From Bacteroidia bacterium (lineage in GTDB: Bacteria; Bacteroidota; Bacteroidia; J057), in NCBI GenBank assembly GCA_019695295.1, contig JAIBAH010000039.1, forward strand, positions 1-35,556: a stretch of 35,556 nucleotides of DNA, given 5' to 3'. The notes beneath the pieces were generated by a model. That model did not search any database. It saw only the letters and a list, made by a program, of their open reading frames with translations, and was not told the DNA's origin. Made by a program: the position numbers and the translations under genes. Below are positions 894-19,717 of the stretch, in pieces (within the stretch, counting starts at the first letter, position 1; every line of letters begins with the position of its first letter).

Positions 894-961
894 TGGGACT
901 GGGCGGAAGCGCGCGGTGCCGCTGCCGGAATGACTGCTTAATAGCGGTCATTCCGTTTTTT
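894..961 (+). ncRNA. Candidate small RNA 2, about 68 nt
   Basis: Promoter-to-terminator length is nearly the same as in candidate RNA 1. A 5' element GCGG (903-906)...CCGC (919-922) encloses a GCGCG core as in RNA 1. The 3' end is a strong terminator: stem 926-938 with 943-955 (13 pairs, one G-T wobble), TAAT loop, then six T residues at 956-961. The RNA ends over the stop codon of the convergent portal/gpF gene. The GC-rich 5' half stands out from its A/T-rich surroundings. Function unknown; antisense control of the leftward operon, or a trans-acting prophage RNA, are the options considered. Confidence 0.55.
926..961 (+). terminator. Terminator of candidate RNA 2
   Basis: A 13-bp stem (one wobble) with a four-base TAAT loop and an uninterrupted run of six T on the plus strand. 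On the minus strand no T run follows the hairpin, so it works in the plus direction only. Confidence 0.7.
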
Positions 962-4731: not shown

Positions 4732-6258
4732 CTAAAATTGAATCCGTTCTTTTTCGCCTACGGAAAAGGCTTTTGCTCCGGGGGTTTGAAATCCCCCTCC
4801 TTTTTCCAACCAAGTGATTCCGCCGTCACAAGCGTCAGGGAAATCGTCATGCACTTTGCTCCCTCGTTCAAATGCCAAGGTTTGGGAAATGCCGGTTTGC
4901 ATATCGGGGTTGTCTTTTTCCGCTTCGTTGTATAGCACTTCGCCCCTCTCCCATTTTGTAGAGCTGGCTTCTATTCGTGCGTGCTTATTGTCCTTTCGGC
5001 TATCGTCAATCAAGATGTCTAAATACTCGCCTCTTTGCCTGCCTTCCGTATTGTAGTCATTTAGGAAAGCACCTTGTATGAATCCCCCCTCCACTACATG
5101 ATAGACAATCAGCCCCTTTCTTTTGAGATACATCCCCCAGTCGTAATGCCAGCGTACCATATTGGGAATGGTAGTTTGGCGGCAGTAGCCTTTGAGTATA
5201 TGATACTCCCTCCCGATTTTCCCAATCGTTACAATCGCTTTATAGTCTGAGGTTGTATTGGCTTTGAAAGAAGGGTCCACGTAGCAGAGAATGTACTCAT
5301 ACTTTTTCCAATCCTTTTCGGGCATGGGTTTCCATACAATCCAATCCGCTTTGAAAATGTTTCCTTCCTCAATGGGAGTATTCATATACTCCCGCATAAA
5401 GCCCCGGTATCCGTATTTTTTTCGGCGTTCCTCAATCCATTCCGGCGTAATGAAAGCCGCCGCCGGATTCCCGTCTTTGTCCATCACGTCCACACGAGTA
5501 ATGTCTATTTCTGGATTTTCTGTGAGCAGGATATGCCCAAGCGAAGTTTTGGAAAAGTAATTATTATCAAAGATGAACCGAAACCGCTCGCCGCCTGCCT
5601 CCTGCGTCCCCATCACATCTTCCATCATCCAGTGATACATCTCCCTGCACCGGGCAGGGTTTTTGGACAGTTCCTTGCTGTCCACGTCCGAGATGACGAT
5701 ATAGTCAGGGCGTTTGAGCTGAATGTTTAGCCCCCTGACGGGCTGCCCCATTCCCAGCCCCACAAACGAACTTCCGTTACGGGTAGTAAATTCTCCTTCC
5801 GCCCAACTGCCATGCAGTTTTTGCGGGCCAAAATCTCTTATATATCTCTCGTTGTTTTCTAGCTGAACCTGCAGGTTCCCTAAGAGCCTTGCCGAAAAGT
5901 TTTCGTTAGGCCCAATGGTAAGCATGAAATCCAACTCCCCTTTTGCCAGCAACATCATCGGCAAAATCGTAGTAGTCCATGTGCTCTTTCGAGCTCCCCG
6001 AAACATCATCCACCACCCAAAATAGTTTTGGGTTTTGAGTACTTTGTTGGCTGCTTTTACCAGATACTCCGGGGTTTCTTTCAAGAACGGAAGATAGTAC
6101 TCCTGAAATAGCTTGGGCGATTTAAGGAGTTTGGCAATTCGCTTTTCTTTTTCAGCGTCGTTTTCGTCCAGAGTGTATTCTGTTGCAAGGCGAATTGCAT
6201 TAGCTTCCCGTTCAAAACGGGCCTGGAGTTTTTGTATATATTTTTGCGTAAGCGCCAT
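4732..6258 (-). CDS. Terminase large subunit (Mu gp28-like)
   Basis: The DNA-packaging motor of 508 residues. The ATPase half shows a Walker A-like RGARKST at 87-93 and a Walker B-like YIVISDVD at 186-193. The nuclease half shows YVDPSFKANTTSDYKA at about 326-341 and DDFPDACDG at 471-479, the acidic positions expected of the RNase H-like terminase nuclease. Length fits Mu-like large terminases. It begins 12 bp after the small subunit gene, in the usual order. In Mu-like phages it packages replicated, integrated DNA by headful cutting. Confidence 0.9.
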   Translation of the reverse strand: MALTQKYIQKLQARFEREANAIRLATEYTLDENDAEKEKRIAKLLKSPKLFQEYYLPFLKETPEYLVKAANKVLKTQNYFGWWMMFRGARKSTWTTTILPMMLLAKGELDFMLTIGPNENFSARLLGNLQVQLENNERYIRDFGPQKLHGSWAEGEFTTRNGSSFVGLGMGQPVRGLNIQLKRPDYIVISDVDSKELSKNPARCREMYHWMMEDVMGTQEAGGERFRFIFDNNYFSKTSLGHILLTENPEIDITRVDVMDKDGNPAAAFITPEWIEERRKKYGYRGFMREYMNTPIEEGNIFKADWIVWKPMPEKDWKKYEYILCYVDPSFKANTTSDYKAIVTIGKIGREYHILKGYCRQTTIPNMVRWHYDWGMYLKRKGLIVYHVVEGGFIQGAFLNDYNTEGRQRGEYLDILIDDSRKDNKHARIEASSTKWERGEVLYNEAEKDNPDMQTGISQTLAFERGSKVHDDFPDACDGGITWLEKGGGFQTPGAKAFSVGEKERIQF

Positions 6259-6270
6259 AGCAGAGTGGGG

Positions 6271-6726
6271 TTATTGGGTGTATTTTTCAGCCTCCTCTTT
6301 CATCAGGCTATCTATATATGGCGTAATCTCCTTTGCAAGGGAAAGATTACGTGTTTTTATATAGTTCATAATTTTGGTAGCGGCTTCGTAAAGCTGAGGC
6401 AACTGAAGCTCCGGCTTGAACTTATCCTTGATCGTGCCCATTTGAATCATAATATTGGCTTCTGCGGTCGACGGGAACCGCTCCTTCTCCGGACGGGAAT
6501 CGATGAGCATAAAAAGATTCCCGAGATACTCGGTGTTCTTCATTGCAATTTTCTCATTCGTTAGTTTGAGCATTTCCCGTTTCTTCTCCCAGTTATCCTC
6601 TCTCGCCCAAATCCCGATTGATTTCAAGGAAACGTTTAGTTCCCTTGCAATTTCGGTCTGCGACTTGGATTCATAGAGGAATTTCATCCAAGCAATTTCC
6701 CTTTCTACCGTTTTCTTGTTTGCCAT
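6271..6726 (-). CDS. Terminase small subunit (Mu gp27-like) with helix-turn-helix
   Basis: A 151-residue DNA-recognition partner of the terminase motor. A helix-turn-helix is visible at about residues 22-45 (SQTEIARELNVSLKSIGIWA), followed by charged helices, as in many small terminases. It is the first gene of the leftward operon, with its ATG about 44 nt from the predicted transcription start. The A/T-rich leader motif variant directly abuts the start codon. The specific gp27 equivalence is inferred from order. Confidence 0.82.
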   Translation of the reverse strand: MANKKTVEREIAWMKFLYESKSQTEIARELNVSLKSIGIWAREDNWEKKREMLKLTNEKIAMKNTEYLGNLFMLIDSRPEKERFPSTAEANIMIQMGTIKDKFKPELQLPQLYEAATKIMNYIKTRNLSLAKEITPYIDSLMKEEAEKYTQ

Positions 6727-6775: not shown

Positions 6776-6888
6776 CAAAGGTCTATAATTCCCTACGATA
6801 ATTCAAAATAACGTTCCCAACTTGGGCAAAATCCTGCCCAAATTGGGAACGTTATTTTGGTTTGAATATAAATTACTAACGATATTTG
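6776..6888. promoter_or_regulatory. Divergent late promoter pair built on a 56-bp palindrome
   Basis: A palindrome spans 6804-6859: 17-bp outer arms (CAAAATAACGTTCCCAA and its complement), one mismatch, 7-bp inner arms and a 6-bp centre. Its end bases are -33 boxes for both directions: TTTG at 6856-6859 is 21 bp from GATATTTG (6881-6888) on the plus strand, and CAAA at 6804-6807 is 20 bp from CAAAGGTC (6776-6783) for the minus strand. Both -7 boxes match TAnnTTTG at 7 of 8. Inside are two 11-bp palindromes, CCCAACTTGGG (6816-6826) and CCCAAATTGGG (6837-6847), with centres 21 bp apart, about two helical turns. This suggests a phage regulator binding two sites on one DNA face and controlling both late operons. 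Confidence 0.7.
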
Positions 6889-6953: not shown

Positions 6954-8129
6954 ATGAGCAAACAAGAATTTAAGGCCGACTACAACGCAAGTACCAGGAC
7001 ATTTACCTTTATGATTATTGGTAGGCTGTATTCAAATTGGGATGTAATGAGCGTATCACAAAGTTTTAATGAAGCGATTCAAAACGGTGCCGAAAAAGTT
7101 GACATCCTTTTGCATAGCCCCGGCGGAGATGTATATACCGGTTTTGGAATATATTCCCTGATCCAGTATTTCAAAAAACAAGTTCCGGTAGAGATTCATA
7201 TTTTGGGGCTTTGCGCGTCTGCTGCTACTTTTATTGCAATGGCAGGAGATAAGGTATATATGAACCCGCTTGGTACATTTATGATTCACAACTGCTCCGG
7301 AGAACTCTACGGCACTGCTGAAGAGATTGAAAAAGGATTAGCGGAAATGAGAAAAATCAACCAAATGATGGTGGATGGATACGCAGCGAGAACCGGTAAA
7401 ACAAAGGAACAAATAAAAGCCTTGATGGACGCAGAAACGAGCATGACACCGGAAGAAGCACTAAAGGGAAAATTCATTGACGTAATCAAGGGCTATGACG
7501 GCGTAGAGGTAAGTGCGTTTGTCGCACCCGCCGAAATCAACGCAACCAAAAAAAGTATTTCAGAGATTTTCAATAATTATATCACAAAAATGGCAGAGGA
7601 CACAAACAAAAACAAACCGCCCGTAGCGGAAAATCAAAACGTACCGCCCGTAACTAATCTCACGCCGGAAGAACAGAAATGGATGGCAGATAATCAACAT
7701 GCCCTTTCTAAATTCCAGTCATGGATGAAGGACGGTAGCGACAAAAAGCAGGTAGAGAATGTAACGGCTATCCTCAACAGGGTCGCAGAAGCGGAGCAAA
7801 AAGTAGCCGTATTGGAAGCAAAACTTTTGCAGGCAGAAAAGCAACGCAAAGAAGACTTGTTGGACGCAGCGGTAGTCGATGGCAGAATTACGGCTTCCGA
7901 AAGAAGCAAGTATGATGGCTTGACTTACGAACAAATTTCCGCTTTCATCAAAGACCTAAAGCCGGCCATCAAACCTACTCAACTTGTGGAGCGCATTTTC
8001 AAAGCGAACGACAGAAACGAGTGGACATTTGACGACTGGGCACGTAAAGACCCTGACGGACTTTCCCAAATGGAGAAAGAGAATCCCGAACGATTTAACG
8101 CATTGTATTCCGAAAGCAAAAAAAAGTAA
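6954..8129 (+). CDS. ClpP-like prohead protease fused to scaffold (Mu gpI-like)
   Basis: A 391-residue protein. Residues about 15-180 are a ClpP/S49-type serine protease: oxyanion segment SPGGD (55-59), nucleophile S89 in LCASAA, and H112 in FMIHN. Such phage proteases trim the scaffold and coat during head maturation. Residues about 213-391 are a Gln/Lys/Glu-rich linker, a coiled coil (about 262-305) and a C-terminal helical tail, the layout of a scaffold that binds coat protein. It is the first gene of the rightward operon, about 60 nt from the predicted start of transcription. The ATG at 6954 is chosen; an internal ATG at 7590 may make the scaffold alone. Confidence 0.85.
   Translation: MSKQEFKADYNASTRTFTFMIIGRLYSNWDVMSVSQSFNEAIQNGAEKVDILLHSPGGDVYTGFGIYSLIQYFKKQVPVEIHILGLCASAATFIAMAGDKVYMNPLGTFMIHNCSGELYGTAEEIEKGLAEMRKINQMMVDGYAARTGKTKEQIKALMDAETSMTPEEALKGKFIDVIKGYDGVEVSAFVAPAEINATKKSISEIFNNYITKMAEDTNKNKPPVAENQNVPPVTNLTPEEQKWMADNQHALSKFQSWMKDGSDKKQVENVTAILNRVAEAEQKVAVLEAKLLQAEKQRKEDLLDAAVVDGRITASERSKYDGLTYEQISAFIKDLKPAIKPTQLVERIFKANDRNEWTFDDWARKDPDGLSQMEKENPERFNALYSESKKK
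7590..8129 (+). CDS. Candidate internally started scaffold protein
   Basis: An in-frame ATG inside the protease gene (residue 213) would give a 179-residue scaffold. The bases before it, AATTATATCACAAAA-ATG (from 7575), nearly copy those before the capsid start, AATTATATTAAAAA-ATG (from 8139), and both go on with GGC(A/C)GA. Scaffold made from an internal start in the protease gene is established in lambda (C/Nu3) and in Mu (I/Z). Here it is inferred from the leader likeness alone. Confidence 0.5.
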   Translation: MAEDTNKNKPPVAENQNVPPVTNLTPEEQKWMADNQHALSKFQSWMKDGSDKKQVENVTAILNRVAEAEQKVAVLEAKLLQAEKQRKEDLLDAAVVDGRITASERSKYDGLTYEQISAFIKDLKPAIKPTQLVERIFKANDRNEWTFDDWARKDPDGLSQMEKENPERFNALYSESKKK

Positions 8130-8152: not shown

Positions 8153-9034
8153 ATGGCCGATTTAAAAAGAGAAATTTGGACTAACCGATTGGTTGAAAAA
8201 TTTGAAACGACCTCCAACTTCTTGGAGTTATTCGAAGACGAAAGTCGTAATGTAAATAACGACGTGATTAACTTGACTGACATTGGAGCTGATCCAGCTG
8301 TATTGATTAACAATACCACTTTCCCTATTGCAACTGCAGTATCTACTGACGCTAATATCCCTGTCCAATTGGATCGCTACGATACCGAAAACACCGAGAT
8401 CCCGGACGCAGACATCGAAACATTGTCTTACGACGTCATTGAATCTCATAACCGCCGACATGTGCGTGCGCTGAATGAAACGAGCCTGAAAAAAGCCGCT
8501 CATGCAATTGCACCTGCAGACGGAACGGTTGCTACCCTCCCTATGGTCAAAACTACTGGAGCTGATGACGGGGACGGATTTAAGAAAATCACCGTAGCGG
8601 ATATTCTGAGGCTGAAACAAAAATTTGACGACGCTGAAATTCCGATGGAACGCAGAGGGTTATTGCTCACTGCGAAGCATGTGAATCAGTTGGCGTTGGA
8701 GGATACTGTTTTCAGAGACGAACTCCGTCGGTCTGGCACAGCAATGTTTAATTATTTTGGGTTCAAAGTGTATCAATTCAGCGGAAATCCGATTTACACG
8801 GCGCTGTTTGAGAAGGTGGCTTATGGAGCCGTTGCGCCTGTGGGTGCAAGGTACGCCTCTGTTGCTTTCTGTGGTGAGCGCACTTTCAAAGCCAAAGGAA
8901 CACCAAAGATGTACAAATCCGTAGCAGAAAATAACCCGCCTATGAGGAAAACCACAATCGGATATAGTCTGCGTTATGTCGCAATGCGTCTCAAAAATGA
9001 AGGGATAGGAGTAATTGTAGCTGACTCTATTTAA
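8153..9034 (+). CDS. Major capsid protein (HK97-like fold)
   Basis: A 293-residue head-shell protein, following the protease/scaffold gene by 23 bp as in most tailed phages. It has no membrane or signal sequence. It shows an acidic N-terminal helix region, an extended central part, and a C-terminal segment (about 240-293) with GERTFKAKGTPKMY and SLRYVAMRLKNEGIGV that fits the HK97 axial domain pattern seen in coat proteins of Bacteroidota Mu-like phages. No cross-linking or cleavage motif is evident. The assignment rests mainly on position, size and overall composition. Confidence 0.75.
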   Translation: MADLKREIWTNRLVEKFETTSNFLELFEDESRNVNNDVINLTDIGADPAVLINNTTFPIATAVSTDANIPVQLDRYDTENTEIPDADIETLSYDVIESHNRRHVRALNETSLKKAAHAIAPADGTVATLPMVKTTGADDGDGFKKITVADILRLKQKFDDAEIPMERRGLLLTAKHVNQLALEDTVFRDELRRSGTAMFNYFGFKVYQFSGNPIYTALFEKVAYGAVAPVGARYASVAFCGERTFKAKGTPKMYKSVAENNPPMRKTTIGYSLRYVAMRLKNEGIGVIVADSI

Positions 9035-9070
9035 ACCAGTATTAATCACCTTTAAATTATATTTTAAACC

Positions 9071-9382
9071 ATGAAAAAGATTTTAGGATTATCTTTGCTT
9101 TTAGGGCTCTGTTTGTTTACGGTAGGAGCTATGCCGCCACCAACCGGCCATTTACAGGATTGCGCGATTACCAATCTGGATGACAGTGGCCATAAGTTCG
9201 AAATCACCAGGAGTGTATTTGCAACGACAGGGGTTTCACGGTACCGGTATGAAATTGTGCCGGATGGATATACTTATACCGTTAGTCCATGGCAGTATTT
9301 CCGGAATTTCTACGCCTATGCAGGGAAGCAGGTAAAGTGGCAACCCCAATATGCTTTAACTTTCAAAATAGTCAGTACCTAA
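9071..9382 (+). CDS. Small secreted protein, possible moron
   Basis: A 103-residue protein with a clear signal peptide: MKK, a hydrophobic run at about 5-19, and a likely cleavage site after VGA near residue 20. The mature part is beta-rich with aromatic residues (YRYEIVPDGY, FRNFYAYAG). It is not recognised. A secreted protein between capsid and tail genes, followed directly by a terminator, is the layout of a moron: a gene useful to the lysogen, for example in superinfection exclusion or surface change. There is no convincing own promoter in the 36 bp before it. Confidence 0.65.
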   Translation: MKKILGLSLLLGLCLFTVGAMPPPTGHLQDCAITNLDDSGHKFEITRSVFATTGVSRYRYEIVPDGYTYTVSPWQYFRNFYAYAGKQVKWQPQYALTFKIVST

Positions 9383-9392
9383 AACTAAATAC

Positions 9393-9431
9393 AAAAGGGC
9401 ACGCAGACATATGCTTGGGGTGCCCTTTTTT
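9393..9431 (+). terminator. Terminator inside the late operon
   Basis: Stem AAAAGGGCAC (9393-9402) pairs perfectly with GTGCCCTTTT (9420-9429), with further T residues to 9431. It would reduce transcription from capsid and secreted-protein genes into the tail genes. The next start codon (9447) is only 16 bp beyond it. Confidence 0.75.
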
Positions 9432-9446
9432 AAAAAAAACAATCCA

Positions 9447-9863
9447 ATGTCCGAAATCAAACCCCCATTAATTAGTAAAGAGGTAGCCCAAAGAGTAATG
9501 GAGATTGCCACTAAAAGAGTGGTAAACAAAATATATATTACTACGGATGGTAATGTGTTTTTAGAGATGTCCTTAGCGCAAGATCATGAGACTAAGCTAG
9601 GGGGTCAAAGAACGCCTACCGAACGCAAACCCCCCGAAACCCTTTCTTATGCACAGGTCGAAGAAATTGCGACTGCAGAAGACGGGCAGGAAGAAAGAGG
9701 ATTGGAGGGAAAACCTGAAAAAAAGACTTCAAAAAACAAAAAGGCGAAAGAATCGGAAGAGACGGAAACGCCTGTAAATCCGAACGTATCTGAAACAATC
9801 AATGAGGAAGAAACAGCGAAGTCTGTGATTCCAAATGTATCTGAAACAATCACTAAAGAATAA
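9447..9863 (+). CDS. Unknown acidic, low-complexity phage protein
   Basis: A 138-residue protein, not recognised. The start is set at the ATG at 9447 (MSEIKPPL) because an upstream start would lie inside the terminator hairpin. Residues about 5-50 look folded (a helix and two strands); from about 55 on the chain is Glu/Lys/Thr-rich and disordered. The end holds two copies of PNVSETI, from a repeated DNA stretch near 9781-9800 and 9832-9851. Its position between capsid and sheath suggests a head-tail joining or decoration role, or a scaffold-like chaperone; none can be shown. Confidence 0.6.
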   Translation: MSEIKPPLISKEVAQRVMEIATKRVVNKIYITTDGNVFLEMSLAQDHETKLGGQRTPTERKPPETLSYAQVEEIATAEDGQEERGLEGKPEKKTSKNKKAKESEETETPVNPNVSETINEEETAKSVIPNVSETITKE

Positions 9864-9866
9864 CTT

Positions 9867-11123
9867 ATGTCTGTACAAGTTTATAGAGGTACAAACCCCC
9901 TAAGTCCCGATGCTTCTGCAGACGGGGTATCTGCCCTGATTATACAGGGGGTGCCCATTGCAAATGGAGGAGGCGTTTCTGGAATAGGGCTAAATGAATC
10001 GAAGATGGTGCGTAGCGTAGCTGAAGCCGAGTTAATCGGCATTACGCAAAGCTACGACGAAACCGAAGGGGTAATGTGTTATTATCACATCAAAGAGTTT
10101 TTTAGGCTAAATCCAAAAGGAGAGCTTTGGATTATGATAGTGGCGCAATCGCTTGCGTGGAGTGCCGTACTGAGTGGGTCAACCGCCGCAAAGAGATTGC
10201 TTTCAGACGCAGCCGGCAAGGTTAGAATATTGGGCGTTGCATTTAATCCATTGTCTGCTTATACTCCTGTAATAGACAATGCAATTGATAGTCAGCTCCC
10301 GGATGCAATCTCTGCAGCTCAGTTGCTTTCGGATTATATGTACGAGGAGAATAAGCCTTTACCGGTTATCGTTATAGAGGGCAGAGGACTTACCGGAAAT
10401 GTATCGGACCTGATAGACTTGCGGACGCTTTCTGCTCCGAATGTATCTGTCGTAATTGGGGCTGATCATTCTTATGAGTTTAGAGACGCGCTCGCTAACG
10501 ACTACGCTAATGCCTCTTTTGTGCAACGACACGCAGCGGTAGGAACGCTCATAGGCGCAATATCCAGAGCCCAAGTCAATCATTCAGTCGCTTGGGTTGA
10601 GAAAAACGATGTACAGGACGTAAACAGAAAAGTATTTTTGGCTGCAGCAATGAGCAACAGTAATTTACCCTCTGCTTACACGAACGCAAACCTTAGCGAT
10701 CTCAAGTCAAAAGGATGGATTCATTTCTACAAAGATGTGGACGCTCCTGGAACTTATATTTCTGATTCGCCGACCTGCGTTGCCATCAACACCCCTTACG
10801 CATTCATTGAGTTAAATCGCACGATGGCAAAAGCAAGTAAAGGCATCAGAGCCGCATTGCTTCCCAGCGTTGCAATGCCCGTCGTGTTTAACCCAGATGG
10901 AAAGTTGCGTCGCACTACAATTGAGGAACTCAGCGCAAAAGCAAAGAAGCCCCTGGAAGCAATGGTAAAAGCTGAAGAAGTTTCGGCGTATAGTCTTATC
11001 ATTGATCCGGCTCAGGATGTGCTTGGGACACAAACCCTCGTGGTGAGATATGAGATTGTGCCTACAGGAACGGCAAGAACGATTGAAGCATACATTAACT
11101 TTATTAACCCTTTCAATACGTAA
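9867..11123 (+). CDS. Tail sheath protein (DUF2586-like)
   Basis: A 418-residue protein taken as the contractile sheath. The N-terminus (VQVYRGTNPLSPDASADG...) and the C-terminal block (about residues 340-418: NPDGKLRRTTIEELSAKAKKPLEAM, then VRYEIVPTGTARTIEAYINFINPF) fit the DUF2586 sheath family of Bacteroidota phages, whose final strands knit neighbouring subunits. It is followed 4 bp later by a tail tube gene, the canonical sheath-tube pair, so the phage is a contractile (myovirus-type) one. It starts 3 bp after the acidic protein gene. Confidence 0.82.
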   Translation: MSVQVYRGTNPLSPDASADGVSALIIQGVPIANGGGVSGIGLNESKMVRSVAEAELIGITQSYDETEGVMCYYHIKEFFRLNPKGELWIMIVAQSLAWSAVLSGSTAAKRLLSDAAGKVRILGVAFNPLSAYTPVIDNAIDSQLPDAISAAQLLSDYMYEENKPLPVIVIEGRGLTGNVSDLIDLRTLSAPNVSVVIGADHSYEFRDALANDYANASFVQRHAAVGTLIGAISRAQVNHSVAWVEKNDVQDVNRKVFLAAAMSNSNLPSAYTNANLSDLKSKGWIHFYKDVDAPGTYISDSPTCVAINTPYAFIELNRTMAKASKGIRAALLPSVAMPVVFNPDGKLRRTTIEELSAKAKKPLEAMVKAEEVSAYSLIIDPAQDVLGTQTLVVRYEIVPTGTARTIEAYINFINPFNT

Positions 11124-11127
11124 AAAA

Positions 11128-11559
11128 ATGGCAACAATTAACAGATTAGGACAAAGCTACGCTTGGGGGGATGTAAAGGTAAGTGTTTTTGGTCGTGAAC
11201 TGGTTGGAATTACTTCAGTAGAGTACGACAAAGAAAAAGAAGTAAAGGCCATCTATGGGCAGGGCGTGGACCCGGTAGCCTATGGCAAGGGAAACAACAA
11301 GTATTCCGGAAAAATCACCTTAGACCTAAAAGAGGTGCAAGGAATTATGAAGGCAATCGGCGTCCCGGGCAAAGACATTACCGATATTCCGGCTTTTGAT
11401 ATTATCGTTACCACTGGTGACGATATAGCAAACGAAACAATCGTAGATGTACTGCAAGAATGTCTTTTCACAAAAATAGGCAAAACCATAAAACAAAATG
11501 ACCAGGAATGGATGGTGGAGCTTCCGCTACACGTTTCAGGAATCGTGTTTGGTTCATAA
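11128..11559 (+). CDS. Tail tube protein
   Basis: A 143-residue protein. The start is placed at the ATG at 11128 (MATINRLGQSYAWGDV), 4 bp after the sheath stop; longer frames would overlap the sheath gene. It is a beta-rich protein with the GKITLDLKEVQGIMKA pattern and a C-terminal ELPLHVSGIVF strand, like contractile tube proteins. The tube is the channel inside the sheath. Position directly after the sheath gene is the strongest evidence. Confidence 0.82.
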   Translation: MATINRLGQSYAWGDVKVSVFGRELVGITSVEYDKEKEVKAIYGQGVDPVAYGKGNNKYSGKITLDLKEVQGIMKAIGVPGKDITDIPAFDIIVTTGDDIANETIVDVLQECLFTKIGKTIKQNDQEWMVELPLHVSGIVFGS

Positions 11560-11568
11560 ACAAATCGG

Positions 11569-11596
11569 GTTGGCAGCACAGGAATGTGCTGCCAAC
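11569..11596 (+). promoter_or_regulatory. Stable GNRA hairpin between tube and chaperone genes
   Basis: GTTGGCAGCACA (11569-11580) pairs perfectly with TGTGCTGCCAAC (11585-11596) around a GGAA tetraloop, a GNRA type. No T run follows, so it is not a standard terminator. It sits 10 bp after the stop of the abundant tube protein and may protect its mRNA 3' end or mark a processing site. Confidence 0.65.
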
Positions 11597-11619
11597 TATC
11601 ATAACCATATATTTCAACC

Positions 11620-11946
11620 ATGCAAGTAATACAAGGCGAAGCCACAGAAGCGCAGATCCAGGAATGGAAAAAAAAACACGCTGAAATTTATGAAATTCGC
11701 GTACCAAAAAACGACGACGAAACAGAGTTTCTTTTTGGATACTTTAAAAAGCCAGACAGAAGCGTAATCGCAAACGCAATGAGATACGCAACTGACAACC
11801 CCATTAAGGCGGGAGAAATTCAATTTAATGGTTGCGTAATTGCGTGTCAGCAGGAAATGAAAGACGACACGGGATATTTCCTCTCAGCAATGCAACAAGT
11901 AGGGTCGTTGGTTAAAATCAGAGAGGCAACTTTAAAAAAGTTATAG
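11620..11946 (+). CDS. Tail assembly chaperone, short (frame 0) product
   Basis: A 108-residue protein between the tube and tape measure genes, the place of tail assembly chaperones (lambda G, Mu gp41-type), which coat the tape measure before tube polymerisation. It has an N-terminal helix (EATEAQIQEWKKKHAEIY), a beta hairpin, and a C-terminal helix ending in ATLKKL. The last codons carry the slippery run TTTAAAAAAG, and a second open frame in -1 continues for 70 codons without its own usable start. This is the classical G/GT layout. Confidence 0.8.
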   Translation: MQVIQGEATEAQIQEWKKKHAEIYEIRVPKNDDETEFLFGYFKKPDRSVIANAMRYATDNPIKAGEIQFNGCVIACQQEMKDDTGYFLSAMQQVGSLVKIREATLKKL

Positions 11947-12152
11947 GGGAGGAGGGAACGCTACCCGCACTCAACGAAGACTCGGAGGGAGGCGTTGCAT
12001 TGGAGTTGCTGCACATGGATGCATTGATTCAACACTATCTTCATTGCAACCCCTGCGAACTCCCCGACGAAACCTATGCCCTTGTGTGGGCAAAAACAAA
12101 GTTCCTAATGGAATGGATAGACAAAAAACAGGCGAAAATATGGGGTGGGTAG
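11620..12152 (+). CDS. Tail assembly chaperone, frameshifted long product
   Basis: Reading frame 0 to 11940, slipping back one base and reading on from 11940 gives 107 + 70 = 177 residues with the stop at 12150-12152. The added part (KVIGEEGTLPAL, then MDALIQHYLHCNPCELPD, then YALVWAKTKFLMEWIDKKQAKIWGG) is well-formed helical protein. The -1 frame is closed upstream at 11913-11915 and has no ATG until 12015, so independent translation is unlikely. The T-type extension is known to recruit tail tube protein in lambda. Confidence 0.75.
11931..11940 (+). promoter_or_regulatory. Programmed -1 ribosomal frameshift site
   Basis: In frame 0 the codons read T TTA AAA AAG. This contains two overlapping slippery heptamers, TTTAAAA and AAAAAAG; the latter is the efficient heptamer of E. 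coli dnaX. The frame-0 stop comes two codons later (11944-11946). The pairing of this site with a long -1 frame is direct from sequence; frameshift efficiency is not. Confidence 0.8.
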
Positions 12153-12158
12153 AAAGGG

Positions 12159-12326
12159 TTATTTACGGGATTTCTTCCGTCTCTCCTCTTCGGCGGCGTG
12201 TTTTTGTATCGCCCAAAGCCTGTCTGCCTCCTCGTCTGCGTCAGTAAAGGGGACGTCAGGCCTTTTCGGAGGCTGGCTGCAAACAATCTTTACTAAAACG
12301 CCGAGAATTATCGCTTCTATAATCAT
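12159..12326 (-). CDS. 55-residue membrane microprotein on the opposite strand
   Basis: A small open frame on the minus strand inside the rightward operon. It starts MIIEAIILGVLVKIVC, an N-terminal membrane helix, followed by SQPPKRPDVP and a highly charged helix ending AAEEERRKKSRK. Its stop ends 6 bp from the stop of the frameshifted chaperone (convergent), and its ATG is 38 bp from that of the tape measure gene (divergent), so the frame fills the 212-bp gap neatly. The A/T-rich leader fits other genes here. Not recognised; spanin-like, holin-antagonist or regulatory peptide are guesses. Confidence 0.5.
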   Translation of the reverse strand: MIIEAIILGVLVKIVCSQPPKRPDVPFTDADEEADRLWAIQKHAAEEERRKKSRK

Positions 12327-12364
12327 GATAATAGGGTTAAATTGTTTATTTTATACATACGGAA

Positions 12365-14620
12365 ATGGCAGAATTTGGTTTGACTTGGATACTAAAATTA
12401 AAGGATCAGGTAACTGGGCCCTTAAACGGGATTTCCAATAGTTTGCACAACGCTGTATCTCAACTTGGAAACTCTCAACTACAGCTCAATCATGTAGCGC
12501 AAGCCGCCCAGGCGTTCGGGGACGTAATGGATCAAATCATTGCGCCCGGCGAAAAATTCAACGCTGCCCAGAAAGAACTCCAAGCCATTACCAACGTAAC
12601 TGATAGCGAGCTAAAAACCCTCAGCAAAAACGCATTGGATTTATCGAAAGTCTTTGGGGGAGACGCAGCAGGCGCAATGAAAGCCTTTTCTCAATCCCTC
12701 TCCGATATTGGGCCTCACCTCGCAAAAGATGAAAAAGCATTGAAGGATTTCGGACGAAACTCCTTTGTGCTTTCTAAGCAGCTCGGCAACGATGTGCCGC
12801 TTGCTGCCGGGATATTAGATACCTCCCTGCAACAATTCGGAAAAAACTTAGATGACCCCAAGGCTGCAGCAGCCCAAATGACCGAGATGATGAACATCAT
12901 GAGTAAAGCTGCAGCTGATGGCTCTGCCACTATGCCGCACATTGCCAAAACCATGCAGGTTGCGGGAGCATCGGCTGGGACAGCTGGAGTCGGTTTTTAC
13001 GATTTTCAGTCAGCCGTACAAGCGCTTTCTTCTAAATCCCTGAAGGGAGCGGAAGCAGGAACGGCATTAGCCCGGCTCTTCGACGGTATGCAAACTGCAG
13101 GCGGAAAATCCAAGGAAACCCTAAAAGGACTAAAGGACGCAGGCGTAAACCTCCAAACCCTGACATCTACTACCGTTCCGCTATCAGAAAGGATTAAAGA
13201 AATTCAAAAGATAGCAGGCGATGTAAATCTTCTCACAAGCCTTTTCGGAGTGGAAGGGAAAACAGCGGCGTTGGATTTGGTAGAGAAAATGGATATGATT
13301 CAAGCGGGAGCAGGCGGAATAAGAGACAGTATCGTAAACCATCAAAATGACGCTTTCCGTCAGGCAGAAACGGTAATGGGGGGCTATTCCGAAAAAATGG
13401 GCAGAATGAAAGCCCGTTTGGAGGCATTTAAAATAGGAATTTTTGAAGCAACCCAAGAGTGGTTGCCCTTTATAGCCGGGACGACAGGCGGAATCGTAGC
13501 CCTGGGGCAGTTACCAGCCTCTTTTGAATTCCTGAAAAGCATGCGTGTTTTTATCGGCACTTTGTTTTCTGACACAAAAACCCTCATTCTAAGCAGCGCA
13601 AAAGGCGGGATACAAGCATTGGCGCAAATCGGAACAGCCGGAGGCAACGCCATTAAGGCCGCAATGCGGGCAACCGCTTCGGGATTCTCTTTTGTAACTT
13701 CAGGAATCAAAAATGCAATCGCCTGGACACGGGGATTTATTACCGTTTTCAGGGGCAATCCTGGCGCAACGATAAGTGGTTTTTTTGCACCGATTTCAAA
13801 CGCATTTCGGGCGGTTATTGCCCAAAGTCGTTTGGGGATTGTGTGGGTTCGGGGGTTCATCACTACTTTTAGAGCGAATCCCGCTGCAATCGTAAGGGGC
13901 TTTTTTATGCCGCTTATCAGCGGATTTGGAAATTTAAAAGTAGCCTTGGTCGGAACATGGGTGAAGTTCATCGGATTTATGAGTAGCATGACATTAGCCA
14001 AAGTGGGGGCAGCCCTCTGGAACGGCGTAGTAGGAATTGCTACCGGGTTACAATGGCTTTGGAATGTAGCCCTTTCTGCCAACCCCATCGGCTTGCTGAT
14101 TATCGCCATTGCTGCCCTTACAGCAGGCATGATATATCTGTATCGAAATTCGGAAACGGTACGAAATATTTTCGCTGCAATTGGTACGGTAATCGGGCAG
14201 GTATGGGACAAAGTATGGACTTTTTTTAAAGGATTAGCTGAAAAAATAGGGAGTGTACTGAGTCCTGTAGCTGATTTTTTGGGATTGAGTATGCCAAAAA
14301 TAGACATCGGAACAGGAGGAGAGGCAGGTTTGATTACCGACTTTAGTGGCATAAACGACAAGACTCTTAGCGTCTCTGACTTAGAAGGAGACGGAGCGGG
14401 AGCAAAGAAAAAAGGAGGCTACGACAAAATCGGCGGTAGCGTCGGCGGGGCTGACAATAGCACAAGAAATGTGGTGGTCAACTTTCACCCCGATTCTATA
14501 AAAATATTTGATAATGCCAAGATAGACAACGCAAACAATGCACTTGGCGACATCAGAAAAACGATTACCGAAGTTATTGTATCCAGCATCCGGGATGCTG
14601 AAATAATCGCAGGAAACTAA
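12365..14620 (+). CDS. Tail tape measure protein
   Basis: A 751-residue protein that sets tail length and is later ejected. Residues about 75-330 match the TP901-type tape measure core: an Ala/Gly/Lys-rich helical domain with ALDLSKVFGGDAAGAMKAFS and GFYDFQSAVQALSSKSLKG. Residues about 385-620 hold hydrophobic segments, including LLIIAIAALTAGMIYLY. Within this is a 40-residue tandem repeat: W454-TRGFITVFRGNP and W494-VRGFITTFRANP, each followed by GFF. The C-terminus is polar and presumably binds the baseplate hub. It follows the chaperone gene as usual. Confidence 0.88.
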   Translation: MAEFGLTWILKLKDQVTGPLNGISNSLHNAVSQLGNSQLQLNHVAQAAQAFGDVMDQIIAPGEKFNAAQKELQAITNVTDSELKTLSKNALDLSKVFGGDAAGAMKAFSQSLSDIGPHLAKDEKALKDFGRNSFVLSKQLGNDVPLAAGILDTSLQQFGKNLDDPKAAAAQMTEMMNIMSKAAADGSATMPHIAKTMQVAGASAGTAGVGFYDFQSAVQALSSKSLKGAEAGTALARLFDGMQTAGGKSKETLKGLKDAGVNLQTLTSTTVPLSERIKEIQKIAGDVNLLTSLFGVEGKTAALDLVEKMDMIQAGAGGIRDSIVNHQNDAFRQAETVMGGYSEKMGRMKARLEAFKIGIFEATQEWLPFIAGTTGGIVALGQLPASFEFLKSMRVFIGTLFSDTKTLILSSAKGGIQALAQIGTAGGNAIKAAMRATASGFSFVTSGIKNAIAWTRGFITVFRGNPGATISGFFAPISNAFRAVIAQSRLGIVWVRGFITTFRANPAAIVRGFFMPLISGFGNLKVALVGTWVKFIGFMSSMTLAKVGAALWNGVVGIATGLQWLWNVALSANPIGLLIIAIAALTAGMIYLYRNSETVRNIFAAIGTVIGQVWDKVWTFFKGLAEKIGSVLSPVADFLGLSMPKIDIGTGGEAGLITDFSGINDKTLSVSDLEGDGAGAKKKGGYDKIGGSVGGADNSTRNVVVNFHPDSIKIFDNAKIDNANNALGDIRKTITEVIVSSIRDAEIIAGN

Positions 14621-14621
14621 G

Positions 14622-15302
14622 ATGAATTATTCTTTTAGCATCAATGAGTTATTACGACGAGCTTTCGTTGGTACTCCACAATACCGTGGAGTGGACGCAG
14701 AAAGAGGCACGCCAATCCCGTCTTTTGATCCGTTGCCTGAATATCAAAAACAAACGGTTGATTACGGCTTAAGCCTTAGCCCTGGTATGGTTAAGGCATG
14801 GTCTATGATACAGTTTCCGGCAGGCAGTTATAAAATAGGCGATAAGGTCTATAATTACGAAACACTATACCTCCCGGAGGCTACTTTTGTAGAAGCCAGC
14901 AGGCAGAAGAATATTGTAGAAACGGCAGTTGCCGGAAGACGCGGGAAGGTAAAAGAAATCATCTCTTCAGAAGATTGGGAAATTTCCATTAAGGGGATAA
15001 TTACCACGGGGAGTATGGGCGAAAAGCCTACTCTAAACCCGGATGAGTATCCACATAACGAGGTGATGGCGTTGCGGAACTTCACCGAGATAGACAAGGA
15101 TGTAGAGATTTTAGGCGAGCTTTTTACGACTTTGGGCATACAGAGGGTAGTGGTGAAAAGCATTGCTTTCCCATTACTGGAAGGGTTCCCTTTTTTACAG
15201 CCCTATGTATTAGAGTGCGTGAGTGATTTCCCGTTCGAGCTGGAGGTTGCCTTAGATAATCAAACAGTTGCTTTAGCCAGAGACTTCCAAAACTACGGAT
15301 AG
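14622..15302 (+). CDS. Baseplate-associated protein (DUF6046-like)
   Basis: A 226-residue protein that seems to belong to the DUF6046 family of Bacteroidota phages, named from memory and not with full certainty. It has a mixed alpha/beta middle part with EDWEISIKGIITTG at about 124-137, and a C-terminal half (about 167-220) of strands including LGIQRVVVKSIAFPLLEGFPFLQPY. It starts one base after the tape measure stop and ends one base before the next gene, so the set is tightly coupled. Position suggests a tail-tube terminator or hub connector. Confidence 0.6.
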   Translation: MNYSFSINELLRRAFVGTPQYRGVDAERGTPIPSFDPLPEYQKQTVDYGLSLSPGMVKAWSMIQFPAGSYKIGDKVYNYETLYLPEATFVEASRQKNIVETAVAGRRGKVKEIISSEDWEISIKGIITTGSMGEKPTLNPDEYPHNEVMALRNFTEIDKDVEILGELFTTLGIQRVVVKSIAFPLLEGFPFLQPYVLECVSDFPFELEVALDNQTVALARDFQNYG

Positions 15303-15303
15303 T

Positions 15304-16011
15304 ATGAAAACAATTACTGAATACGGACAAAATATCATAGACCTCGCAATTCAAACCTACGGGAATCTTTCCTATGTTTTTGCGCTGATACAAGAAAATG
15401 GGTTAGGTGGACTAAACGTAAACCTTGCTCATGGAATAGAAATAAACTACAATGCGATAGATGAGGATACGCCAGATAGAGCAGTGCAATCTTTTTATGA
15501 AAAGCGGGAAATCAGGGTAAAAACAGGGGAGGAAAAGTACTATGCTATTACTCCATGTGGAATTCCGGAAGGGTATGTTTTATGGCAATTTAGAATAGAT
15601 GAAATTGCGACTGATACTATTCTGTATCTTAATTCGGCAAGTTCATGCCCTTCATTAGCAACTGTAAATAGTTGGGATGTAGAATACAAATTAAGTCATT
15701 TTGCATTGATTGTAATGACGCAAGCAATGTCTCCCACTGCAGCTGCATATAATTTTGCAACCTGGTTTAATGAGTACCGAGAAGGATTTGCCTTTGCAGC
15801 AGACAATACAGTCACCCTTTTATTGCCAAAGTCGGAATATCCTTGTGACACTGATTTATCTCTTTGTGCTTACAAGAAAGCAAGAGGACTTGACGAACCA
15901 TATAGTGCCCTGGAAACACCACCGGACATCTATTATCCGAGCGTAAAGACAAGATGTTGTAATAATGAATCTGGTACCGAAAGCGAAAACACTGTTTATC
16001 CTATATTATAA
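15304..16011 (+). CDS. Baseplate protein with LysM-like N-terminus
   Basis: A 235-residue protein. Residues about 5-50 (YGQNIIDLAIQTYGN, then VFALIQENGL and LAHGIEINY) resemble the LysM / tail protein X fold of baseplate connectors such as P2 gpX. The remainder is unrecognised: a beta-rich centre and a Cys-containing tail (PCDTDLSLC, CCNN). It is coupled to the hub gene by a one-base TAATG overlap. The GC content appears lower than in the neighbouring genes. The LysM likeness is visual, not tested. Confidence 0.55.
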   Translation: MKTITEYGQNIIDLAIQTYGNLSYVFALIQENGLGGLNVNLAHGIEINYNAIDEDTPDRAVQSFYEKREIRVKTGEEKYYAITPCGIPEGYVLWQFRIDEIATDTILYLNSASSCPSLATVNSWDVEYKLSHFALIVMTQAMSPTAAAYNFATWFNEYREGFAFAADNTVTLLLPKSEYPCDTDLSLCAYKKARGLDEPYSALETPPDIYYPSVKTRCCNNESGTESENTVYPIL

Positions 16012-16982
16012 TGGCATATCTTCTCACATGTAGCATTAAGTTAGAGCCGCTCCAGTCCTTCGACTTTGCGCATGAAGTCGTTATTGATAGTTCATATAAA
16101 ACGCTTACCGATACCGCAACTCTCCGATTCCCGAGAAACATAAAGCTGAGAAACGCCAATCTTAGAGAAGTATTGAAAAAAGGCCAAAAGGCCAAACTAT
16201 CATTGGGATATGACGGCAATAATAAGGAATTGTATTTGGGGCGGATTGTGGGGGTTAAACCTGAAACCCCTTTCTTAATCGAAATGGAGGATGAGATGTG
16301 GACTTTAAAACAAAAAAACGTCTCAAAAGCATACCCAAAAGTAAGCCTCAACCAACTGTTAAGGGATATTATTACACCGTTGGGAATAGTATATGAGTGC
16401 AGTCAGGATATTAATCTAGGGAAAATTCGTATAGAAAAAACCACTATCGCAAAGGTGCTGGAAATGCTGAAGGATAATTACGGAATTTACTCGTTCTTTA
16501 TTGGCGAGGTTTTACATGTAGGAACCCCTAATTTATCAGGGTTCGACTACGCCTCTCAAAGCCCAATAGCGTTTGATTTTCAAAAAGACATCCCAAAGGA
16601 CTCTGCCTCCTTGTCTTATGTATCCTCAGACGATAGAAAATTAAGAATTGATGCGGTCGGGTTTACTACTGACAATAAAGTAATCAAAGCAACAATAGGA
16701 GAGCAGGATGGCGAAGTTCATACCCTTCACTACTATGGGATTACTGAGGAGGCAGAGCTTAGGCAGCGAGCCTTAGCAGACCAGAAAAGGATGCAAGTAT
16801 CAGGATATAAAGGTGTTTTTACGGCGTTTGGAACTCATATTGTGAAGCACGGAAATGTAGTCTCCCTAAAAGACAACGAATACCCGGAAAGGGAGGGCAA
16901 TTATCGTGTAGAATCGGTAAAAACCACTTTTGGATTAGCAGGATTCAGACAGGAAATAGAATTAGGCGCAAGAATATCATAA
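16011..16982 (+). CDS. Baseplate hub protein (gpD / late control D-like)
   Basis: A 323-residue protein like the P2 gpD / Mu gp44 hub, which links tail tube and spike. Evidence: N-terminal beta domain ending LRFPRNIKLRNANLREVLKKG; a middle TLKQKNVSKAYPKVSLNQLL and LGIVYECSQDINLGKIRI segment typical of the D domain; then the C-terminal GITEEAELRQRALADQKRM stretch followed by GNYRVESVKTTFG and a GFRQEIELGARI end, characteristic of late control D proteins. It is overlapped with the upstream gene and 3 bp from the gp25-like gene. Confidence 0.8.
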   Translation: MAYLLTCSIKLEPLQSFDFAHEVVIDSSYKTLTDTATLRFPRNIKLRNANLREVLKKGQKAKLSLGYDGNNKELYLGRIVGVKPETPFLIEMEDEMWTLKQKNVSKAYPKVSLNQLLRDIITPLGIVYECSQDINLGKIRIEKTTIAKVLEMLKDNYGIYSFFIGEVLHVGTPNLSGFDYASQSPIAFDFQKDIPKDSASLSYVSSDDRKLRIDAVGFTTDNKVIKATIGEQDGEVHTLHYYGITEEAELRQRALADQKRMQVSGYKGVFTAFGTHIVKHGNVVSLKDNEYPEREGNYRVESVKTTFGLAGFRQEIELGARIS

Positions 16983-16985
16983 AAA

Positions 16986-17300
16986 ATGAAAACAGTACAA
17001 GACATAAGAACGGACAATGGCGAATTGGTAATAGCTAACGGCGATTTCCTGCTAACGGATTCAGACAATACACATATTGAAAGTATCCTGATGGCCGAAA
17101 AAGGGCACTACCGGCAACACCCTTTGTGCGGAGTGGGCGTAAAGTCTTTTCAAAGTGCACCGTTGGCTCAGTCCGTACTAGCCTTGCTACGCAAAAGAAT
17201 AGAAATGCAGCTTAAATTAGATGGCTATGCAATTACAAAAATAGAAATAAACCCTACCTTAACCCAAGAGAGCATTCACATTAAAGCAAATAGGAACTAA
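16986..17300 (+). CDS. Baseplate wedge protein (gp25 / W-like)
   Basis: A 104-residue protein resembling the T4 gp25 / P2 gpW / Mu gp46 wedge subunit, which nucleates sheath assembly. Visible features: GDFLLTDSDNTHIESILMAEKG at about 19-40, then HPLCGVGVKSFQSAP and a long helix VLALLRKRIEMQLKLDGY before a closing strand. The gene sits directly before the gpJ-like gene (1 bp gap), the usual W-J order. Confidence 0.75.
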   Translation: MKTVQDIRTDNGELVIANGDFLLTDSDNTHIESILMAEKGHYRQHPLCGVGVKSFQSAPLAQSVLALLRKRIEMQLKLDGYAITKIEINPTLTQESIHIKANRN

Positions 17301-17301
17301 A

Positions 17302-18123
17302 ATGGCAAGAACAATCCAACAAATATTTGATAGTATAGAGGCAGAGAAAAACGCAAGTTCCGCCCTTTCAGACCTTACCTCTCCCAGTCAAACCGCTATT
17401 TGGAGGGTATGGGCTTTTATTGTCGCCGCGGCAATATGGGCACATGAAACCCTTTGGGATATGTTTTGGACAGAAGTGCAAACGGTGATGAATAGAAACG
17501 TAGTAGGCACTTTGCCGTGGTATAGAGAAAAAGCACTTCAGTTTCAATACAATCCTTCTCAACCTTATTTTATTGTTTTTGATGAAGAAAACCGCCCAGT
17601 ATATGATATAATTGCTCCGGCCGATAGAATCATTACCCATGCTGCAGCGGTAGAGAGTTTTAATAGTATAGTGATTGTCAAAGCTGCGAAAAGTGTTTCT
17701 GGCGTTCCTGTTCCGCTGACCTCATTGGAGTTGCAGAGTTTCAAAGACTATATGTTTTCCATGAAATTTGCCGGCACTAGACTGAAGTGCATTTCCACTG
17801 ACCCGGACAAAATATCTGTATTTGCCAATATCTATTACGACCCAATTGCCCCATTTAATGCGGTTTCAATTGCGGTTGAAGAAGCATTAAATCTTTATTT
17901 AAACACATTGCCATTCAACGGAATCGTATATGTAGAAAAAGTCCAGAACGCAATACAGTCTGTAAAAGGGGTTGTCTCCGTTGAAATAGTAAGCGTAAAC
18001 GTGGATTATGGAAACGGCGTTTTGCCAATTACCCGTGTACATCAAACGCTCGCAGGTTATTGTACGATTAATTCTGCTTTCCCGTTGTCTTCCACTTTAT
18101 CCTATAATGCCTCTAATATATGA
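17302..18123 (+). CDS. Baseplate J-like protein (Mu gp47-like)
   Basis: A 273-residue wedge protein. The central and C-terminal parts fit baseplate J: SVFANIYYDPIAPFNAVSIAVEEAL, followed by LNTLPFNGIVYVEKVQNAIQS and VKGVVSVEIVSV, the repeated strand-helix pattern of the family. N-terminal helices contain Trp-rich WRVWAFIVAAAIWAHETLWDMFW, probably an amphipathic packing surface rather than a membrane span. The stop overlaps the next start (ATGA), showing coupling. Confidence 0.8.
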   Translation: MARTIQQIFDSIEAEKNASSALSDLTSPSQTAIWRVWAFIVAAAIWAHETLWDMFWTEVQTVMNRNVVGTLPWYREKALQFQYNPSQPYFIVFDEENRPVYDIIAPADRIITHAAAVESFNSIVIVKAAKSVSGVPVPLTSLELQSFKDYMFSMKFAGTRLKCISTDPDKISVFANIYYDPIAPFNAVSIAVEEALNLYLNTLPFNGIVYVEKVQNAIQSVKGVVSVEIVSVNVDYGNGVLPITRVHQTLAGYCTINSAFPLSSTLSYNASNI

Positions 18124-18734
18124 TTTATCTGATAGATTTCTTTATATTTATTAAGAGGGTTTTGCCTCCTCCGCTAAGAAAAAGCCGAATGATTGCTTGG
18201 CTTTGGGCATTGGTTAAGCCTGTTGCACAACTTCATAGTGCCCCTTCTGTATTGCACCCGGTACGCTTTCCCAATTGCCTTGTTTTTGATAGTCCCTCCT
18301 TTTTGAGCTTTAGGTTGCATAGCCTTCTGCGGGCTTCTGTGAACGGGGAGGTGATTGTATTGGAGAGGCTATTGAATTTATTTTATTACGCTTTCTTTGA
18401 TTCTACACAAGCCCGTGGAACGCAGGGATATTGGATATACATTGAAGACAAAGATTTAGATATAGGATATCCGTTCGTTTATCTTGATGTGGAAAACAGG
18501 CCTTTGCCGGTGTATTCTGCGGCTGACTATACGCCTCCTTTGCCTTTGCCCGATAACGGATCTTCGAGTCTGGAGGGTCCTCAGTATCTATATCAGTTAT
18601 CAGATTACTACGGGCCCGTTGATTTTATTGTCTATGTTCCGCAAGTACTCCCATTTAACCAAACGGAGATGGAAATACTAATTAATCAGTACAAATTGGC
18701 CGCCACAAAATATATAATTCAAGTTTACTCATGA
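18120..18734 (+). CDS. Phage baseplate/tail protein, gpI or gp48 position
   Basis: A 204-residue protein that overlaps genes on both sides by four bases (ATGA). By order (W, J, this, fibre) it occupies the position of P2 gpI / Mu gp48, which connects baseplate and fibres. The first 20 residues are hydrophobic and basic; a conserved-looking core starts at MIAWLWALVKPVAQLHSA (residue 24). The middle has EVIVLERLLNLFYY, the end PFNQTEMEILINQYKLAATKYIIQVY. Bacteroidota phages carry related proteins at this place, recalled without a firm family name. Confidence 0.65.
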   Translation: MIYLIDFFIFIKRVLPPPLRKSRMIAWLWALVKPVAQLHSAPSVLHPVRFPNCLVFDSPSFLSFRLHSLLRASVNGEVIVLERLLNLFYYAFFDSTQARGTQGYWIYIEDKDLDIGYPFVYLDVENRPLPVYSAADYTPPLPLPDNGSSSLEGPQYLYQLSDYYGPVDFIVYVPQVLPFNQTEMEILINQYKLAATKYIIQVYS

Positions 18735-19717
18735 AAAAAATTGATTTTACGTACCCTGGAGGGTACCCATTGGTACAGGAGTCGCTCGGTTTTATGCAGG
18801 ATGCATATACGGACGCGATCAAAGCACTTTCCCTTTCATTGGATATTTCTGGCTCACCAACAGGCAAAGCCGTAATACTGTCGGGTTGTGAGGTAACTAT
18901 TGTAAGTGGGAATATCTCCATAGCTGCTGGTTATGTGGCGTGGAATACAGGTGAAATTATGCCCGTTATGCCCGTTACGCTTACCTACATACTGGGCAGC
19001 CCTCTATATTTGATTAGAAAAACGGCCCCCCACGCAAGCATGGATCCTACTTATTTCGCAATGAGTGGGCAAGTTCAGGATGTTCATATAAATAGTTTCT
19101 GCGAGGTGAGTTACACGCCTTCAGGCACACATCTGCCTTTCCTTGAACAGTATAGGTATAGGAATATGGTAAGGGATTATGGCACTCCGCTCGCAAGTAT
19201 TATCGCCTATGGGGGGCAAATTTCAAGTATTCCTTCAAACTGGAAATTGTGTGACGGATCAACCTTGAATTACAATCTCAATCCAGAGTTTCAATCCCTC
19301 TTCGGGGTCATTGGAACAATACATGGAGCCGGAGTGAGCGTAGGTGATTTTAAACTACCGGACTTAAGAGACCGATTTATACTTGGAGCTTCGCCTACCC
19401 ATTCCGTTGCCACATCGGGCGGGGATGACGAAATTACACTTGTCGAGGCAAATCTTCCGCCTCATTCCCACGCAATTGATAACGACGGTGAACACATTCA
19501 CGGGGCGAAGTTCCCTAACGTCACGATGGTCGGAGTAAACGTTGGTACAGGCGACCCTGCTGCGGACTCTGATTTCGCTAACTCGTTCTGGAAAGACACA
19601 GCGGTAGCGGGCGATCACAATCATGGCGGGGAAACGGGAGATGGAAACGGAACCTCAACGCCAATTCAACACTTACCGCCTTATGTGGCACTTTGCTATA
19701 TAATTCGAGTATATTAA
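18731..19717 (+). CDS. Tail fibre protein with collar domain and HxH motifs
   Basis: A 328-residue receptor-binding candidate. Residues about 155-220 form a phage tail collar domain: P-A-S-I-I-A-Y-G-G-Q, then WKLCDGSTLNY, and FKLPDLRDRFILG. The C-terminal part has His pairs PHSHAI, GEHIHGA and GDHNHGG, which in T4 gp12 and gp37 hold iron or zinc ions along a needle-like trimer, and it ends LPPYVALCYIIRVY, typical of such tips. No chaperone for fibre assembly is visible next to it. Confidence 0.82.
   Translation: MKKIDFTYPGGYPLVQESLGFMQDAYTDAIKALSLSLDISGSPTGKAVILSGCEVTIVSGNISIAAGYVAWNTGEIMPVMPVTLTYILGSPLYLIRKTAPHASMDPTYFAMSGQVQDVHINSFCEVSYTPSGTHLPFLEQYRYRNMVRDYGTPLASIIAYGGQISSIPSNWKLCDGSTLNYNLNPEFQSLFGVIGTIHGAGVSVGDFKLPDLRDRFILGASPTHSVATSGGDDEITLVEANLPPHSHAIDNDGEHIHGAKFPNVTMVGVNVGTGDPAADSDFANSFWKDTAVAGDHNHGGETGDGNGTSTPIQHLPPYVALCYIIRVY

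Follow-up and report, generated by a model that had tools for sequence, protein, structure and literature searches.

The gap between two divergent gene clusters of a Bacteroidota Mu-like prophage, one for packaging and one for virion proteins, carries a palindromic array of two putative operator copies, placed midway between two outward-facing predicted promoters of the Bacteroidota type. Comparison with relatives shows that this palindrome is genuine and that it lies at a control point common to a large family of Bacteroidota Mu-like phages. On these grounds, the two-site operator array and a phage-encoded late regulator quite probably control both divergent late operons, with a small HTH protein as the binder and activator.

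The two divergent operons of the window

The window, by which we mean the whole 35,556-nt stretch analysed, is a contig of a Bacteroidota genome with packaging, head and tail genes of a Mu-like prophage. Leftward from position 6726 the gene order is small terminase subunit (TerS), large terminase subunit (TerL), small ORFs, adaptor Gp36, Mu portal-F fusion and, at the contig edge, tail completion/neck. The operon of the head maturation protease runs in the other direction (Table 1). The terminase and protease operons are inferred to be late from their gene content. The TerS–protease intergenic gap is 227 bp long and contains the palindrome.

Some other features of the window were also observed. 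A single 869-aa protein (960-3569) combines Mu-type portal domains with those of gpF head morphogenesis; this fusion is also present in Porphyromonas phages, and Hankyphage p00 and Peternella are annotated with two genes. Between the tail-completion and portal-F genes, the segment 617-959 (+) comprises two tandem similar units, and in each of them a hairpin of terminator-like form comes after a promoter-like CATTCGTATATTTG stretch (82% identical over 51 nt); these could be two small RNA genes within the leftward late operon. A 1023-aa ORF at 22059-25130 (-) is without a PHROG match and may be host DNA past the prophage.

Table 1. Genes, predicted promoter elements and putative operator copies of the window
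Feature	Position	Strand	Remarks
Remaining leftward operon up to the contig end	116..4701	-	adaptor Gp36, Mu portal-F fusion, tail completion / neck, small ORFs
Large terminase subunit (TerL)	4732..6258	-	PHROG 38, E 3e-60
Small terminase subunit (TerS) / DNA-binding protein	6271..6726	-	PHROG 4151 (DNA binding protein) and weak terminase small subunit matches; opens the leftward operon
Predicted -7 box GACCTTTG, leftward promoter	6776..6783 (read 6783-6776)	-	5/6 fixed bases of TAnnTTTG
Predicted -33 box TTTG, leftward (terminase, portal) promoter	6804..6807 (read 6807-6804)	-	20-nt spacer to the -7 box
56-bp palindrome, putative operator array	6804..6859	.	inverted-repeat score 22; outward TTTG at each edge
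Putative operator copy 1, CCCAACTTGGG	6816..6826, centre 6821	.	21 bp from copy 2
Putative operator copy 2, CCCAAATTGGG	6837..6847, centre 6842	.	21 bp from copy 1
Predicted -33 box TTTG, rightward (protease, capsid, tail) promoter	6856..6859	+	21-nt spacer to the -7 box
Predicted -7 box GATATTTG, rightward promoter	6881..6888	+	5/6 fixed bases of TAnnTTTG
ClpP-type head maturation protease	6954..8129	+	PHROG 94, PF00574; opens the rightward operon
Rightward operon	8153..19717	+	major head protein, sheath-like DUF2586, tape measure, baseplate, tail fibre

A palindrome with two phased sites between two predicted promoters

The arms of the inverted repeat (6804-6828 and 6835-6859) are 25 nt long, pair at 24/25 positions and enclose a 6-nt loop. 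CCCAACTTGGG and CCCAAATTGGG are framed by AACGTT, and the palindrome ends outward in TTTG on both sides. An earlier note on this DNA had claimed a palindrome containing two CCCAAnTTGGG elements with centres 21 bp apart, and the inverted-repeat analysis bore this out. Two dyad sites at this distance, a whole number of helical turns, have the form of an operator array. CCCAAnTTGGG occurs in the window in just these two copies, even with one mismatch allowed, and in the 4.9-Mb genome the exact TCCCAAnTTGGGnA is restricted to the same two; no other full copy of the palindrome was found in that genome. A score of 18 was reached by none of the 5,220 dinucleotide shuffles made from 174 family gaps, which argues that the window palindrome, at 22, did not arise by chance.

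The earlier note had also placed each TTTG edge 20 or 21 bp from a 7/8 TAnnTTTG box. We found these boxes as described, each having 5/6 of the fixed bases, which is 7/8 if the free n are counted. Hence, with spacers of 20/21 nt, the window holds a pair of promoters of the sigma-ABfr form (-33 TTTG, -7 TAnnTTTG, spacer ~20). A distance of 98 bp separates the two -7 boxes, and their midpoint (6832) almost coincides with the centre of the palindrome (6831.5); an outward-facing pair of boxes 94-99 bp apart is expected by chance in just 0.3 of 73 cluster gaps. No sigma-70 promoters, which are the wrong type for the host, were found near the gap.

Conservation of the gap architecture among relatives

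We gathered ~300 relative loci from viral contigs, genomes and phage records. The closest large terminases are just ~40% identical to that of the window, and therefore all comparisons span long distances; an alignment of 19 large terminases proved too diverse for a pattern scan. TerS and protease genes were divergent, with a gap of 12-560 bp, in 243 of the 246 loci in which both were recognised, and this layout was also present in Hankyphage p00, Peternella, fF4 and Porphyromonas phages. Some of the gaps are as short as 53-60 bp.

An inverted repeat scoring at least 9 was observed in 40% of 174 non-redundant gaps, the corresponding values being 3.4% for dinucleotide shuffles and 2.3% for slices of coding sequence from the same loci. 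For the further counts we took one gap per cluster of TerL at 70% identity (73 clusters); this superseded a -7 profile over all palindromes, which was dominated by one clade. The lag of direct repeats peaked at 21 bp (18/73 clusters) and 22 bp (8 clusters), most other lags being found in 0-5. The arrays include four copies of TACCATCATGGG, three of CCCATnATGGG and two of CTAAAGgAAAATCTTTAG. With the best member representing each cluster, which makes the counts somewhat generous, 41/73 clusters had at least one member with a strong palindrome or with a 21/22-bp repeat, and 32/73 had neither; when a preferred promoter distance (see below) was also accepted, 59/73 had at least one of the three signals and 14/73 had none.

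From these comparisons, the architecture of the gap is conserved among relatives and its sequence is not, the sites differing between lineages. The proposal that relatives would carry pairs of CCCAAnTTGGG between the terminase and protease genes therefore held for the architecture but not for CCCAAnTTGGG itself, which is unconserved, nor for the number of sites, which varies. Palindromes, like 21/22-bp repeats, do occur in the gap far above chance, although the 14 clusters lacking all three signals depart from the expectation that related prophages of this layout would have a palindrome there.

One large clade of relatives was observed to have a tRNA-Met (cat) gene that is oriented like the protease operon and separates the head-protease gene from the late operator (L277:2259-2333; in the same place in L318, L291, L303, L306, L297, L287 and L327).

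Quantized spacing of the divergent promoters

We measured the inner distance between the divergent -7 boxes. It was 115-119 bp in 29/73 clusters (0.2 expected from shuffles), 71-76 bp in 9/73 (0.4 expected) and 94-99 bp in 3/73 (0.3 expected), the last being the window's class and the smallest. The preferred distances are therefore about 74, 96 and 117 bp, in steps of ~21 bp; a separate count placed these peaks at 74, 95-98 and 116-118 bp. When the family was aligned on the -7 box, T was present in 82-91% at each of three positions 22-24 nt upstream, followed by G or T, which indicates a -33 box with a 20-nt spacer. The suggestion that the -33 boxes lie at the edges of the palindrome fits this picture, as the family has TTT(G/T) at -33, with a 20-bp spacer, beside the repeats. 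Taken together, the spacing classes and the -33 position leave a zone of ~26, 48 or 68 bp from one -33 box to the other.

The strongest centres of symmetry were at -10.5, 0 and +10.5 bp from the promoter midpoint in the 94-99-bp class and at 0 in the 74-bp class. In three-site gaps, the expected centres at +21 and -21 bp were absent from the top ones; the outer copies there may be half sites. We infer that the number of sites and the promoter distance rise together, so that the site nearest to a -7 box would stay ~37 bp from it, with the outer centres unseen in the 117-bp class.

The first base of the -7 box was C in 35/70 and T in 11/70 boxes, whereas the published Bacteroidota -7 consensus is TAnnTTTG (PMC7366714). 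As this base is mostly C and not the consensus T, the family's late promoters are suggested to be weak or activator-dependent.

A small HTH-like protein as the candidate regulator

To the left of the gap, and on the rightward strand of the early genes, all 18 near-complete phages have an HTH-like ORF of 59-140 aa. In at least 11/18 a small HTH-like ORF lies within ~0.8 kb of the tail-completion gene, where the left late operon ends, and in Hankyphage p00 (32174-32443) and Peternella the gene is also beside the tail-completion end; the match in G741 is weak (E 0.003) and lies further left. A Pfam search of these proteins gave nothing credible. In PHROGs, one type belongs to family 17154 (function unknown), and one member matched a late-activator family so weakly (E 0.1) that we did not count it as evidence. 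The model of the Hankyphage-type protein has a three-helix HTH-like fold (pLDDT 79). A sequence search of solved structures returned none, Foldseek gave no match under E 0.001, and fold comparison gave common HTH arrangements only (Z 7 or less); as the fold matches are weak and of this general kind, we name no family for the protein. A search for a Mor/C homologue (PF08765) in 22 relatives yielded two weak matches, none above the cut-off.

Next, we compared proteins with sites. Among loci fetched by similarity to the Hankyphage-type (EFFISEERI-type) protein alone, at least two copies of YATGATR were present in 27 of 32 distinct gaps, compared with 0.9% of shuffles, and their lags were 21 and 42/43 bp. 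None of the 17 phages not retrieved via this protein had two copies. In 33 non-redundant phages, site similarity followed the similarity of the small HTH protein when TerS and TerL were controlled for (partial Mantel r 0.38, p 0.0005). With regulator and TerL controlled, the correlation with TerS was r 0.08 (p 0.15), and other early genes gave weak residual values (r 0.10-0.22). Phages with similar terminases but different small proteins had different sites. As 20 of the 33 phages were collected via similarity of the small HTH protein, the sample is enriched for one protein type, and we take the Mantel correlation as support rather than proof.

A regulator gene to the left of the window, as guessed in the earlier note, would match its position in every complete relative, but the gene itself did not emerge from the window's assembly: a search there for transposase and regulator, made without a positive control, found nothing. 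The contig opens (1-22) with the last codons of a + strand frame (QEIKVS, then stop), where complete relatives encode the small HTH protein, and the contig break seems to fall just inside or beside this gene.

In Hankyphage p00 (L501, 41055-41191), CTAAG-n3-CTTAG palindromes were noticed by eye in the stretch that separates the early operon from the gene of the CI-like repressor; they look like the repressor's operators.

A possible switch for both late operons

The earlier note had proposed a pair of regulator dimers on one DNA face switching both late operons, and the comparative evidence (layout, 21/22-bp repeats, quantized -7 spacing) supports it. In such a scheme, induction would lead to transcription of the early operon, the last product of which would be the small HTH protein; in the phage of the window, its gene would lie just left of position 1. 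The protein would bind the array as phased dimers on one helix face (21 bp, two turns). As the array is exactly midway between the divergent promoters, one bound assembly could serve both operons: in contact with RNA polymerase beside the -33 box, the bound protein would recruit the host enzyme or activate it at either promoter, and the packaging and virion genes would thereby be switched on at the same time. What the DNA itself displays is where the sites lie and at what pitch, the promoter elements, a layout kept across relatives and a promoter distance that moves in steps; the identity of the binder and its action as an activator are what the scheme proposes beyond this.

For the family as a whole, we lean slightly towards a fast-evolving class of small HTH proteins acting on phased arrays midway between divergent promoters, in lineage-specific protein-operator pairs. 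In the shortest form, with just one palindrome and with -7 boxes 74 bp apart, two polymerases that face in opposite directions, away from each other, may both be served by a single dimer.

Alternative explanations of the array

The same regulator could bind the same array as a repressor that closes the two late promoters in the lysogen or in the early phase of infection. Recognisable -33 and -7 boxes with a good spacer suit this, as does an array that abuts or overlaps the -33 boxes, and much of the geometry would be explained by a repressor as well. We consider it unlikely, as the -7 box is off consensus at its first base, the gene at the end of the early operon occupies the place of the Mu late activator C, and a repressor needs no fixed helical phase to the -7 box, yet this phase is the conserved feature. 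Direct binding by a CI-like prophage repressor has in its favour that tandem palindromes at a pitch of ~21-24 bp resemble repressor operators in general. Silencing of repcHP, which raises most Hankyphage genes (PMC12135933), also counts for it. However, the late-gap motif of p00, CATGATGA, was absent by eye from the repressor/early-promoter region, and in each of 15 near-complete phages the sites have essentially no copies outside the late gap. As the p00 repressor region has other palindromes and lacks the late motif, the repressor is disfavoured as the binder, and we judge its direct action on the array very improbable.

TerS is a DNA-binding HTH protein encoded directly beside the array, which it might bind as a pac-like site or as an autoregulator. 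The site similarity, however, was unexplained by TerS similarity in the above Mantel comparison, the array is mid-genome, and transposable phages, as Mu, package from the prophage end; a role of TerS is thus extremely unlikely. A hairpin acting in RNA, as a bidirectional terminator or a 5'-UTR structure, would agree with the terminator-like pattern of the minus strand, although no transcription unit ends there. Both inferred starts are outside the palindrome, which would therefore stay untranscribed; moreover, direct repeats in relatives (four copies in L136, two in L375) form no comparable hairpin, and the RNA family search gave no Rfam match, all of which makes this reading very doubtful. 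A central gyrase site would have a parallel in Mu, whose gyrase site (SGS) is located between G and I and which also has a late promoter at the corresponding junction, close to gene I (PMC10052514; PMC4461284); the gap, at 0.33-0.74 along the contig among relatives, has a position that is compatible and nothing further. Against this and against a mobile palindromic repeat (MITE/REP) stand the very short gaps (53-60 bp) and the single full copy in the genome; as neither reading explains the promoter spacing and the repeat pitch, we give both hardly any weight.

Activation by the small HTH protein from a shared array hence remains the reading that we prefer. It would provide a single switch, and a named candidate protein, for late expression in very common gut and environmental phages, Hankyphage included, for whose late regulation no description was found in the open-licence literature searched. 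The many natural pairs of small HTH protein and operator, with promoter steps of ~21 bp, would make a clean system for studying how two divergent promoters are driven by one bound regulator when the polymerase is that of Bacteroidota.

Comparison with known systems

In Mu, the C gene is positioned at the end of the early/middle region. The small candidate gene, present in 18/18 near-complete relatives, resembles it in usually being at the end of the early/middle operon, but its product is unlike Mu C in that it is not a recognisable Mor/C protein. The two systems are also alike in having a small phage DNA-binding protein, a site upstream of -35 and non-consensus late promoters (in Mu, Plys, PI, PP and Pmom), and the node is likewise at the junction of the head-protease gene (I in Mu); the late promoters of Mu need an activator (PMC4461284). 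Mu differs by its four separate late promoters, whereas the Bacteroidota phages have one divergent node, with one to several sites at a 21/22-bp pitch and promoters of the Bacteroidota type.

The family's promoters, as seen in their logo, are similar to sigma-ABfr promoters in the -33 TTTG, the -7 TAnnTTTG and the ~20-nt spacer (PMC7366714), and differ from them at the above first base of the -7 box. In Hankyphage p00, CATGATGA repeats are 43 bp apart in the gap, and this operator sequence differs from that of the window; the gap of a Porphyromonas phage is just 56 bp, and no comparable array was found in it. The late node, undescribed in the open-licence literature searched, appears to be a Mu C-like mechanism in a rearranged form: one divergent node, Bacteroidota promoters and another protein family.
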